DNA of 64,000 nucleotides, from positions 434,001 through 498,000 of the forward strand of contig NZ_CP014646.1 of the NCBI RefSeq assembly GCF_001051995.2, written 5' to 3'. Numbering within the stretch: the first letter of the stretch is position 1; every line of letters begins with the position of its first letter. The notes beneath the pieces are model-generated. The model ran no database searches. It was not told the origin of the DNA and saw only the letters and a program-made list of their open reading frames with translations. A program made the translations under genes and the position numbers. This document shows positions 55,980 through 61,259 of the stretch, piece by piece. Source of the DNA: Thauera humireducens (GTDB taxonomy: Bacteria > Pseudomonadota > Gammaproteobacteria > Burkholderiales > Rhodocyclaceae).

Positions 55980-56180
55980 ATGGAAGACCGCCTCGAAGCG
56001 CTCGAAACCAAGATCATGTCGGCCGAGGATCAGCTCGACGAACTGAACCGCACCGTTTGGCGCCAGCAGCAGGAGCTCGACCTGCTGCGCGAGCAGGTGC
56101 GACAGCTGGCGCAGCAGGTCAAGACCATCCAGCCGGGCGCGCCGAACCGTCCGGAAGACGAGATCCCGCCGCACTGGTAG
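55980..56180 (+). CDS. slyX: SlyX family protein
   Basis: A 66-aa protein predicted to be almost entirely a coiled coil (residues 3-50) with a Pro-rich tail ending PPHW, which is the typical SlyX ending. The start ATG 55980 is 31 bp after queG. SlyX was found beside slyD in Escherichia coli and has no settled function. It is probably transcribed with queG and precedes the nirS promoter region. Confidence 0.88.
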   Translation: MEDRLEALETKIMSAEDQLDELNRTVWRQQQELDLLREQVRQLAQQVKTIQPGAPNRPEDEIPPHW

Positions 56181-56292
56181 GACATCCACGGAACGCCTCG
56201 GAGGCGGACGCGCGCGCGTGTTCGCGACACCCTCGGCCGGGCCCGGGAGACCGGCAGGAAGCGACACCCTTACCCTCGATCAAGTCCGGTTT

Positions 56293-58137
<1,845 letters not shown>

Positions 58138-58156
58138 GGCGCCTGCGAGTCCCTCG

Positions 58157-58178
58157 GGGGAGAGGGCAGCCCCTCCCC
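58157..58178 (+). terminator. GC-rich hairpin after nirS
   Basis: GGGGAG (58157-58162) pairs with CTCCCC (58173-58178), with GGG/CCC pairs further inside. It lies 20 bp after the nirS stop and has no T-tract, so termination may be partial and allow read-through to the next gene. Confidence 0.4.
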
Positions 58179-58227
58179 GGATTGCTCAGTCCGTCGCCTT
58201 GCCGAACCATCTAGAGGTGTCGTTGAA

Positions 58228-59727
58228 GTGATCGCCCCAACGAGGGACGCCCTTTGGGCGCAACGCAAGCTGCTGGCGGCCGAGCCGCTCTTTGCCGGCC
58301 TGCCGGCGGCCTTGTTCGACGAACTGGCGGTGGGTAGCCGCGTGCTCGAACTGAACGCGCAGAGCCTGCTCTACCGTGCCGAGGATCCGATCCACGAGGC
58401 CTTCGTGCTGGCCAGCGGCAGCGTGGCGCGCGAGCACCTGCTGCCCACCGGCAACGAGAAGGTGCTGGAACTGGCGCAGGCGCCGCAGGTGCTCGCGCTC
58501 GGCGAACTACTGGCGCGCACGCATTACGGCGCATCGTGCAGGGCGCTCGCCCACAGCGTCGTCGTTGCGATCGACATCCGCCGCCTGCGCGGGGCCATCC
58601 AGAAGGACCCTGCGTTGAGCTGGCGGATCGTGCAGACGCTGGCGAAGCGCCAGTGCGCGATCGAGTTCGACGTTTCCGGCCACCATTCGGGGGCCACCGG
58701 CGCACAACGCATCCTCGACTACCTGCTCGCGCAGGCGGGTGATCGCATCGGTCTCGCCGGCGAGACCACGGTCGTGCTGAAGGCCAGCAAGAAGATCATT
58801 GCGGCCCGCATCGGCATGACCCCCGAGTCCTTTTCACGCAGCCTGCGCCAACTCAGCGATCAAGGTGTGGTCGTCGTCGAGGGGCGCAAGGTGCACGTCC
58901 AGCACGCCGCGCTGAGCGATATCGAAGCCGGCAAGTCGGGCCAGCGCCTGCGCTTCGTGCGCAAGGGCAAGGCCCAGGGCGTGCCGTCCGGTGCGCGTAT
59001 CGCGCCCGGGGCACTGGTCAACCTGTGCGGTCGCTGTCGCATGCTGTCGCAGCGCATGGCCATCGCCTGGGCACTGATCGCGGCGGGCCTGTCGGTGGAG
59101 AAGGCCGCGGTGCGCCTGCGGCGGCTGGTGCACGAGTTCGAGCGCGTGCTGGCCCGTCTCGAGGCGCTGGGGATGCCCGATCTCCTGGAGTCGGGGCGCG
59201 TGGCCGTGGTCGAGGCCTGGCCCGATTACCGTGCCGCGCTGGCCGAGGACGGCGCGACGCCGGCGCGGGCGAAGCGGGTGCTTGCCGCCAGCGAAACCGT
59301 GCTCGATGCGGCCGACCGGCTCACCAGCGCGGCCGAGCAGGCGTTCGGGCTGCCGGACGCGCATTACGTCAATGTGGCCGGTCGCAACCGCATGTTGTCG
59401 CAGCGCATCGGCAAGCTGTTCGTGTTTCGCGAGTGGGTGGCCGAGCCGGCGCGCATCCAGGACGAGATCGACGCGGCAACCGGTGAGTTCGAGCGCAACC
59501 TCGACGAACTGCGCCACAGCGGGCGGCGCCTTCCCGAACTGTCTGGGCAACTGCAGGAAGTGTCGGACCAGTGGCAGCGCTTCCTGCGTGCGCTGGCACC
59601 CGATGTGATGCGCGTGCAGCGCGCGCAGCATGTGCGGGCGGTGGTCGGCGAGGCCGACCGGCTGTTACGCCATGTGGATACCGCAGTGAAGCTCTATGAG
59701 CGGCTGACGCCGGCGCCGGCCGCCTAG
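58228..59727 (+). CDS. CRP/FNR-type regulator fused to two PilJ/NarX-like sensor domains
   Basis: A 499-aa soluble protein with an unusual architecture. Residues about 18-135 form a cyclic-nucleotide-type effector domain, and about 150-230 a CRP/FNR helix-turn-helix; ARIGMTPESFSRSLRQL has E-x2-SR, the FNR/DNR recognition pattern for TTGAT-N4-ATCAA. Two PilJ-type modules follow, opening with NLCGRCRMLSQRMA near 264-277 and NVAGRNRMLSQRIGKL near 380-395. These resemble the NarX P-box region that binds nitrate. There is no signal peptide or membrane helix, so the sensor is cytoplasmic. Start is GTG 58228. It lies 90 bp after nirS on the same strand. FNR's cluster cysteines are absent. Confidence 0.85.
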   Translation: MIAPTRDALWAQRKLLAAEPLFAGLPAALFDELAVGSRVLELNAQSLLYRAEDPIHEAFVLASGSVAREHLLPTGNEKVLELAQAPQVLALGELLARTHYGASCRALAHSVVVAIDIRRLRGAIQKDPALSWRIVQTLAKRQCAIEFDVSGHHSGATGAQRILDYLLAQAGDRIGLAGETTVVLKASKKIIAARIGMTPESFSRSLRQLSDQGVVVVEGRKVHVQHAALSDIEAGKSGQRLRFVRKGKAQGVPSGARIAPGALVNLCGRCRMLSQRMAIAWALIAAGLSVEKAAVRLRRLVHEFERVLARLEALGMPDLLESGRVAVVEAWPDYRAALAEDGATPARAKRVLAASETVLDAADRLTSAAEQAFGLPDAHYVNVAGRNRMLSQRIGKLFVFREWVAEPARIQDEIDAATGEFERNLDELRHSGRRLPELSGQLQEVSDQWQRFLRALAPDVMRVQRAQHVRAVVGEADRLLRHVDTAVKLYERLTPAPAA

Positions 59728-59758: not shown

Positions 59759-60049
59759 TCAGACCAGCGCGCCGGTCAGCCGTGCGAGCATGTCGCCGAA
59801 GGCGCTGGTGAGGATCACCAGAATCGGCATGCCGTAGCAGAAGCCGTGCATCGCCAGCCGGATGCCGCGCCGGGCCGTCGGCAGTTCGAGGAAACGGTCG
59901 CACACGATGCGGACCTTGATGCCCATCACCAGCGCGACCAGCACGGTGACGCCGAAGCCGGTGTCCGGGCTGCCGCCGAGCGCGGCGCCGACCACGCTCA
60001 GCACGACCAGTCCCAGCCAGGCGAGGTCGAGCTTGCGGATCTCGTTCAT
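59759..60049 (-). CDS. norF: NorF-like / cytochrome c oxidase subunit IV family protein
   Basis: A 96-aa membrane protein with three hydrophobic helices (about residues 10-28, 32-48 and 65-88), matching the COX4-type protein NorF encoded beside norE in denitrifiers. NorF affects the maturation or activity of nitric oxide reductase; its precise role is unsettled. It starts 16 bp after norE on the minus strand. Norm partners norCB are not in this window. The assignment rests on size, hydrophobic pattern and the norE link. Confidence 0.8.
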   Translation of the reverse strand: MNEIRKLDLAWLGLVVLSVVGAALGGSPDTGFGVTVLVALVMGIKVRIVCDRFLELPTARRGIRLAMHGFCYGMPILVILTSAFGDMLARLTGALV

Positions 60050-60065: not shown

Positions 60066-60692
60066 TCAGCGCAGCACGTAGAACAGCGGAAAGATCATCA
60101 GCCAGATGATGTCCGTCGCGTGCCAGTAGCAGGCAAAGGCCTCCAGTCCCGAATGCTCGTCGGCCGAGTAGGAGCCGGTGCCGGTGCGCAGCATCACCCA
60201 GATCAGGCCGAGCAGCCCCCAGAACACGTGGATCAGGTGGTTGAAGGTCAGGTAGTAGTAGGTGACGATGAATACGCCGGCATCGCCGTCGAGACCGTGG
60301 GCGAGGTTCCAGCGCACTTCGAACAGCTTGATCACCGGGTAGCCGAGACCGAACACGAACGCGCCCAGCAGCCAGCGCAGGCTCGCCTTCCGGCGTCCGG
60401 CGCGCATGGCGTGCACTGCGCGTGCCACGCACCAGCCGCTGGTCAGCAGCATCAGCGTGTAGCCGGTGCCGGCCAGCAGCGACAGTCGCTCCGGGCCGGC
60501 GCGGAAGACCTCGGGGTGATGCGCGCGCGCGATGAAGTACACCGCGAACATCAGCGCGAATTCGGTCACCTCGCAGAAGATGCCGACCCACATCGCCTTG
60601 CTGCCCGGGATGCGGCCGGGGGCGGGTGGAGCGTCGGGCAGGGTGGCGGCGTACGACACGGGAGGGGCTTGAAGACGGGATCGGAAAGGCAT
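60066..60692 (-). CDS. norE: NorE: cytochrome c oxidase subunit III-like protein
   Basis: Membrane protein of the haem-copper oxidase subunit III family, found in denitrification clusters and needed for full nitric oxide reductase activity. I choose ATG 60692 (MPFRSRLQAPPVSYAATLPD, 208 aa); open frame continues upstream without family similarity. Features are GRIPGSKAMWVGIFCEVTEFALMF with the conserved Glu pair near residue 45, HVFWGLLGLIWV, and a C-terminal YWHATDIIWLMIFPLFYVL. It has five predicted helices. It is divergent from creA and forms norEF with the next gene. Confidence 0.88.
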   Translation of the reverse strand: MPFRSRLQAPPVSYAATLPDAPPAPGRIPGSKAMWVGIFCEVTEFALMFAVYFIARAHHPEVFRAGPERLSLLAGTGYTLMLLTSGWCVARAVHAMRAGRRKASLRWLLGAFVFGLGYPVIKLFEVRWNLAHGLDGDAGVFIVTYYYLTFNHLIHVFWGLLGLIWVMLRTGTGSYSADEHSGLEAFACYWHATDIIWLMIFPLFYVLR

Positions 60693-60718
60693 TCTCGCGC
60701 GGCCGCGCCGGCGCTGCC

Positions 60719-60732
60719 TTGATGCAGGGTAA
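60719..60732. promoter_or_regulatory. Degenerate FNR-type half site upstream of norE
   Basis: TTGAT-GCAG-GGTAA matches one arm of the FNR/DNR consensus perfectly and the other at 3 of 5 positions. It lies 26 bp before the norE start on the other strand, too close for a standard activating position unless translation starts later. Confidence 0.25.
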
Positions 60733-60785
60733 ATTGCGCGTCGCAATGCGATACTGGCGGCTCTCCGCAACAAGGATGCACGGAC

Positions 60786-61259
60786 GTGAAGATCTTCCTG
60801 CTCGGCGCGCTGGGCGCCGCCCTGGCATTGCCGCTCTGCGCGCAGGCCGAGACCGTCGGCGCTGTCGATACCGCATTCAAGCTCATCGGGCGCAATCACC
60901 AGGTGGTGGTCGAGGTGTTCGACGACCCCAAGGTGAAGGGCGTGTCGTGTTACGTATCGCGTGCGCGGACGGGTGGCATCAAGGGGACGCTGGGCCTTGC
61001 CGAGGACACGGCCGATGCCGCGGTTGCCTGCCGCCAGGTGGGTGAGATCACCCTGCTGGAACCGTTGGACAAGCAGGAGGAGGTGTTCTCCGAGCGCGCG
61101 TCGATCCTGTTCAAGAAGGTGCGCATCGTGCGCATGGCCGACGCCAGGCGCAACACGCTGGTATACCTCGTCTATAGCGACAAGCTGATCGATGGCAGCC
61201 CGCAGAACAACGTTACCGCAGTCCCCTTGCCCGCGAGCGTACCGCTCAAGCTGCGCTGA
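60786..61259 (+). CDS. creA: CreA family periplasmic protein
   Basis: A 157-aa secreted protein of the CreA family, named from the creABCD locus of Escherichia coli; function unknown. A Sec signal peptide (KIFLLGALGAALALPLCAQA, cleavage near residue 21) leads to ETVGAVDTAFKLIGRNH. The conserved core is VEVFDDPKVKGVSCYVSRA with GGIKGTLGLAEDTADAAVAC, where two Cys may form a disulfide, and the C-terminus has YLVYSDKLIDGSPQNNVTAV. It is divergent from norE by 93 bp and has no creBCD beside it. Confidence 0.93.
   Translation: MKIFLLGALGAALALPLCAQAETVGAVDTAFKLIGRNHQVVVEVFDDPKVKGVSCYVSRARTGGIKGTLGLAEDTADAAVACRQVGEITLLEPLDKQEEVFSERASILFKKVRIVRMADARRNTLVYLVYSDKLIDGSPQNNVTAVPLPASVPLKLR

Follow-up and report, generated by a model that had tools for sequence, protein, structure and literature searches.

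A nirS-linked CRP/FNR-type protein with a double PilJ half, most likely a one-component regulator gated by nitrogen oxyanions

How nitrite reductase is matched to the supply of nitrogen oxyanions (N-oxyanions) in denitrifiers is only partly understood, and the nitrite reductase NirS makes nitric oxide (NO), the precursor of nitrous oxide. Here we describe a gene that follows nirS in a 64,000-nucleotide (nt) stretch of the Thauera humireducens genome (contig NZ_CP014646.1, positions 434,001 to 498,000; the window) and whose product joins a CRP/FNR-type DNA-binding unit to two PilJ modules. The closest described systems share parts of this design. NasR of Klebsiella oxytoca, a NIT-ANTAR antiterminator, is described in PMC7496416 as a cytoplasmic one-component nitrate/nitrite regulator, and it has a double-bundle sensor; PMC8199190 places both P-box arginines in an asymmetric nitrate site. 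In NasR, however, an RNA-binding ANTAR output follows the sensor, whereas in the Thauera protein a CRP/FNR DNA-binding unit precedes it. McpN, a chemoreceptor of Pseudomonas aeruginosa with an N-box PilJ domain, is presented in PMC6381276 as periplasmic, with one module per chain, a ligand site on the homodimer axis and a chemotaxis output; its R61 contacts nitrate through two hydrogen bonds, and the R61A mutant was unable to recognise nitrate. The NarX/NarQ-NarL/NarP systems have the G-x-x-R nitrate motif and a four-helix sensor, but NarX and NarQ are membrane histidine kinases with extracytoplasmic sensors that work by phosphorelay. NarR of Paracoccus, as reported in PMC8139620 and PMC3541799, belongs to the CRP/FNR family, responds to nitrate/nitrite and carries no iron-sulphur (Fe-S) cluster, but controls nitrate reduction, not nir. 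Regulators of the DNR/NNR type have the closest CRP-type core and control nirS, yet they respond to NO, and the 227-residue chain of DNR has no PilJ half. To our knowledge NarR of Paracoccus is likewise without a PilJ half.

The regulator gene lies at 58228..59727 on the forward strand of the window (open reading frame list and Pfam; GTG start, 499 residues). Pfam placed a cNMP_binding-type domain (PF00027, 41.0 bits) at residues 41-127 (58348..58608, +), where the alignment shows no conserved Fe-S cysteines, and an HTH_Crp_2 domain (PF13545, 41.5 bits) at residues 160-224 (58705..58899, +); the two together define a member of the CRP/FNR superfamily. The PilJ profile (PF13675) matched two stretches at 70.4 bits against a gathering score of 26.6. 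All three scores exceed their cut-offs and bear out the architecture proposed by a sequence-only reading of the window, which had made its case depend on the likeness of the C-terminal half to PilJ sensor domains. Module 1 (59005..59343, +; helices 260-285, 290-313, 318-337 and 345-372) carries the motif VNLCGRCRMLSQR with G268 and R271, and module 2 (59353..59706, +; helices 376-400, 407-434, 436-456 and 465-493) carries the N-box-like VNVAGRNRMLSQ with G385 and R388. The RMLSQR motif said to open each module is present at residues 271-276 and again at 388-393. Neither a membrane helix nor a signal peptide was apparent by hydropathy, in agreement with that reading. The highest 19-residue Kyte-Doolittle mean was 1.58, at residue 277 within a PilJ helix, compared with 3.08 for the NarX-like kinase of the same genome by the same measure; the peak exceeded 1.6 in 13 of 65 family rows, with a maximum of 1.93. 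Judged by its sequence, the regulator looks soluble and cytoplasmic. Pfam found no histidine-kinase domain in it, which places it outside the NarX/NarQ sensor-kinase class.

Of 8000 candidates scored in the protein search, 266 were relatives at E<=1e-3. The best 120 of the 266, which were listed, share 93-49% identity with the regulator over 92-100% of its length, and all of these have HTH_Crp and PilJ domains. Residue conservation was taken from 121 aligned rows and from a 65-row set reaching down to about 30% identity, from which a length filter removed locus L033 and the copies L109, L110, L112, L113 and L114 (of L042, L046, L013, L043 and L045, respectively) were dropped; the sensor alignment leaves out L044 (run-on C-terminus), L021 (masked bases) and L033. 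N265, R271, Q275, N382, A384, G385, R386, R388 and Q392 are invariant in the 121 rows, and position 268 is Gly in 119 of them. At the larger distance R271 and R388 are each kept in 64 of 65 rows, the remaining row having a gap in the first case and a Leu in the second. The nitrate-contacting G-x-x-R of the NarX P-box type is therefore present twice in near-invariant form, as G268-R271 and as G385-R388; the same core is also found in NarX/NarQ according to PMC8199190. HMMER comparison of module 2 with the McpN receptor puts G385 on G58 and R388 on R61, the McpN numbers being taken from the motif given in PMC6381276. Neither module fully matches the strict N-box of that source, [IVL]-[ND]-x-A-G-x-Q-R-M-L-[ST]-Q. 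Module 2 deviates once (N for Q) and module 1 twice (C for A and C for Q), and the strict form occurs in at least one module in 10 of 65 family rows, two of which have it in both. The C-terminal RLLRHVDTAVKLYERL (residues 478-493, window 59659-59706) is likewise one of the best-conserved segments in the family and may be a contact to the CRP half.

A fold search with the whole predicted model returned mainly CRP-type folds, and the sensor was then refolded alone. The structure prediction recommended by the earlier reading gave a double bundle that superposes end to end on that of NasR, the only match among those listed by VIA-align with both bundles at low root-mean-square deviation; the likeness rests on VIA-align, as Foldseek on the sensor folded alone returned zero rows at E<=0.001. 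Neither the NIT nor the ANTAR profile of Pfam matched the regulator at E<=1, which places it outside the NIT/NasR family as defined by these profiles. On the modelled fold, the two PilJ modules are better described as a single double bundle of the NIT type, and the sensor may share the working mode of NasR while lying outside the NIT family. The nitrate-contact residues of the two modules support the earlier proposal; cytoplasmic nitrate sensing by this fold is already known from NasR. No published work on a CRP/FNR-PilJ fusion was found in the open-licence literature searched, in keeping with the remark in that reading that no characterised example was known; against this, NarR is an already described nitrate/nitrite-responsive member of the superfamily, and a 2019 paper (PMC6381276) referred in general terms to transcriptional regulators with PilJ domains.

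The regulator is linked to nirS far beyond chance. In the window nirS (cytochrome cd1 nitrite reductase; 56410..58137, +) has a cytochrome c domain and, at 492.5 bits, a cytochrome d1 domain in Pfam, and 90 nt separate the end of its stop codon from the regulator. The neighbour mapping proposed earlier found nirS directly upstream on the same strand in 28 of 44 loci (loci, not genomes, as some genomes give two; L052, at 24% identity, was excluded), and the distance from the aligned end of nirS to the matched start of the regulator was 95-144 nt in 26 of the 28. Among 297 genomes of the same family, the regulator follows 13 of the 14 nirS copies of at least 84% identity, the exception being in G260. 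Of the 37 genomes that carry the regulator in full length, 36 had a nirS match, vs 153 of the 260 genomes without one, as counted by eye with five partial-match genomes (G089, G094, G133, G181 and G232) excluded from the 42 matched. Twenty-one further distinct loci include four with the regulator behind nirS (L102, L104, L106 and L107; a contig end cuts nirS in L106) and two, L094 and L116, in which it is divergent beside nosZ (TIGR04244 above cut-off). Next to nosZ in these two lies a NosR-like gene, which scored 630.9 bits in L094, below the model cut-off of 1000, and was read by eye in L116; the motif glycines are replaced in both modules of both proteins. Mapped on the 65-row tree, adjacency to nirS takes 8 changes, compared with a shuffled mean of 22. 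Several loci weigh against a dedicated partnership with nirS. No nirS stands upstream in 16 of the 44 loci, Thauera terpenica (L009) keeps the regulator and window-like flanking genes with nirS absent, and in a clade of Thauera paralogues (L037, L039, L041, L043 and L048) inspection by eye recognised no adjacent denitrification gene.

Taking both sides together, we hold with moderate confidence that the protein most likely regulates nirS as a one-component factor gated by N-oxyanions. From the architecture, the conservation, the predicted fold and the gene linkage we infer a scheme that includes the ligand, the R271-R388 pairing, the coupling, the sign of control and the target. The protein would be a soluble transcription factor. 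In its C-terminal half a single chain would contain both PilJ four-helix bundles, in the arrangement seen in the NasR NIT domain, and would form within one molecule the equivalent of the NarX/McpN homodimer. A single nitrate or nitrite ion would sit between the bundles, contacted by R271 in bundle 1 and by R388 in bundle 2, and the ligand would alter the packing of the sensor half on the CRP-type half, either by release of autoinhibition as in NasR or by a changed dimer. The altered packing would switch binding at a site of the TTGAT-N4-ATCAA type and hence transcription of nirS, the gene that most often precedes the regulator. NasR is freed from autoinhibition by its ligand, as described in PMC7496416, and because the sensor here too is joined by a flexible linker, its coupling is a reasonable model for the regulator. 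With a soluble regulator whose two-arginine site is defined, nitrate/nitrite control of nirS would become directly testable in culturable Thauera, Dechloromonas and Azospira, and such a regulator could be used by itself as a nitrate biosensor.

The signal could be nitrite rather than nitrate, with the regulator reading the NirS substrate on its arrival in the cytoplasm; we think this unlikely, though it deserves serious weight. The gene preceding the regulator in the 28 loci encodes a nitrite reductase, NasR is reported to respond to nitrate or nitrite (PMC7496416), and NarX/NarQ bind both ions while McpN binds nitrate only, as stated in PMC6381276. The host genome, whose nearest named relative is Thauera propionica (92%), points the same way, since nitrate reduction would go through periplasmic NapA and the NarG and NarK models gave zero matches above cut-off in it. 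The NirB model likewise had no match above cut-off, and NarG was above cut-off in 3 of 13 genomes of the genus. Nitrate respiration in the host, as read from its genes, is probably periplasmic, and therefore the question becomes one of cytoplasmic nitrite or imported nitrate. On the other hand, the best-scoring solved relative of the sensor half is the nitrate-only McpN, and the sequence does not separate the two ions. A NarX-like kinase and a response-regulator gene adjoin napA in the same genome, and the earlier suggestion that the regulator bypasses the NarXL route is not supported.

The DNA-binding half has the predicted E-x2-SR recognition helix, TPESFSR, with E200, S203 and R204 invariant in the 121 rows. 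The CRP half holds two Cys only, C104 and C143, at positions that are Cys in 83 and 86 of the 121 rows, and the FNR-type cysteines for a [4Fe-4S] cluster are absent. NCBIfam scores of 20.1 bits for Fnr (cut-off 228) and 19.6 bits for CRP (cut-off 266) set the protein apart from oxygen-sensing FNR and cAMP-sensing CRP. G92-E93 is kept, yet at 101-104, where by inference and not by alignment to CRP the phosphate-binding cassette would place its Arg (R82 in E. coli CRP), Arg does not rank with the three most frequent residues. The best sequence match of this half among solved structures was DNR (97.7 bits), also the top match by Foldseek, and in model denitrifiers DNR/NNR regulators control nirS (PMC8139620 and PMC3541799). 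These matches favour a rather improbable account in which the CRP half is a DNR-type haem sensor of NO, NO is the main signal for nirS, and the PilJ half is a second input or a dimerisation aid. Against it, the sole position invariant in the 121 rows among the His and Cys of the protein's CRP half is H223, in the DNA-binding part, leaving no invariant His among those that the protein has in its sensing domain, whereas the PilJ arginines are invariant.

The perfect box claimed upstream of nirS, TTGATTTTCATCAA, lies at 56332..56345 (+), is of the FNR/DNR type and is the only perfect copy within the window. The listed start of the nirS open reading frame (56332) falls inside it; the likely ATG is at 56410, 64 nt beyond the end of the box. 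With one mismatch allowed the window has 2 matches, a count reached by 15 of 100 shuffles, while the whole genome has 9 perfect boxes vs 0 for the reversed pattern. Among regulator-linked nirS genes (the window and 26 loci that hold the start region of nirS) the box was perfect in 23 of 27 and within one mismatch in 26 of 27, with varying spacers. Twenty control nirS genes, from genomes with no regulator match at the threshold used, had a perfect box in 4 and one within one mismatch in 16. The excess of perfect boxes is significant (Fisher p 1.4e-5) and the difference at one mismatch is not (p 0.15), for rows that are related and stretches that differ (300 nt before the start region in the linked set vs 420 nt around the match start in controls). 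L011 and L012, where a contig end cuts nirS and distances are meaningless, are excluded from the count, and L030 has no box (4 mismatches). On this sequence comparison the box near nirS is under selection. As proof of the regulator's target we rejected it, because 16 of 20 controls have it within one mismatch, three other CRP-type proteins of the genome (one with an FNR-like cysteine motif) have the E-x2-SR helix, and one of the nine perfect boxes lies upstream of ccoN, a usual FNR target; FNR/DNR-type proteins can bind such sites. The use of the box as support for this regulator in the sequence-only reading therefore fails. That FNR/DNR-type proteins suffice to explain the box, and that the nosZ-linked members have lost the motif glycines, would fit a PilJ half that has become a structural dimerisation or protein-binding module no longer binding N-oxyanions, with FNR/DNR running nirS through the TTGAT site, but the precedent for this is a PilJ receptor with no N-box, while R271 and R388 are kept here to about 30% identity, and we consider it improbable indeed.

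No box of the regulator's own was seen in the 115 nt upstream of it (3-5 mismatches in all 29 rows), no sigma-70-like site was found in 56150-58400, and no terminator-like site was called between nirS and the regulator, whose co-transcription with nirS is likely on this prediction.

The sensor occurs beyond this protein. In a sample, not a census, in which the best few candidates were scored per genome, the sensor profile matched 16 of 369 genomes of the class (E<=1e-20) and 20 of 398 of the phylum (E<=1e-15), the own genome being among them in both. The matching open frames were 188-350 residues long with four exceptions, of which L158 and L177 are ANTAR fusions, L162 is PilJ alone by Pfam and L155 gave no longer gene. 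No CRP fusion was seen in this sample outside the own genome, and the CRP-PilJ fusion was met only in the family of the window, save L023 in a metagenome-assembled genome labelled Desulfobulbus. L023 has nirS (88% identical) and a regulator of the Rhodocyclales type, and is probably mis-binned. The proteins at L158 (5572-6921), beside genes that read like molybdopterin nitrate reductase and nitrate transport, and at L177 (655-2199) resemble the regulator in carrying a double PilJ on a cytoplasmic-type regulator and differ in their RNA-binding output; no published test of such an ANTAR protein was found in the open-licence literature searched. Seven double-PilJ loci outside the family were opened (L155-L161). 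L157 has a NarX-like kinase nearby, in L161 the protein stands beside a molybdopterin oxidoreductase and an ANTAR response regulator, and by eye no nitrate gene was seen near L155, L156, L159 or L160. We tentatively suggest, at a little short of even confidence, that the tandem N-box PilJ is a cytoplasmic sensor of N-oxyanions that can be exchanged between outputs, equivalent to NIT but distinct from it in sequence, joined to CRP/FNR in the family of Rhodocyclales type that was searched and to ANTAR elsewhere, and that the CRP form is a nitrate/nitrite switch dedicated to single denitrification steps and linked to their genes, mostly nirS, and nosZ in a branch with a changed sensor. The pairing suggests one sensor fold serving DNA, RNA, kinase and chemotaxis outputs.

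Other features of these loci were noted. Small genes of the COX4_pro and COX3 type (59759-60049 and 60066-60899, both -) are convergent with the regulator, with counterparts in L008 and L009, and resemble norF/norE. A two-component pair like a response regulator and a sensor kinase occupies the place of nirS in L024 and L026, and a cytochrome b, Fe-S and flavin reductase gene set precedes the regulator in L097 and L098. The Thauera genome has a second nirS (60% identical; G000:C1:1340986-1342587, -) in another cluster, near other d1-type and cytochrome-like matches, with no perfect box near it (L197). A double-PilJ protein with a signal-like N-terminus is also encoded there (L002, 1381-2196), beside a VWA-type gene, presumably NorD/CbbO-like, and no recognised nitrate gene; it is a possible source of the fused sensor. 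A further PilJ protein of the same genome reads like a chemoreceptor.
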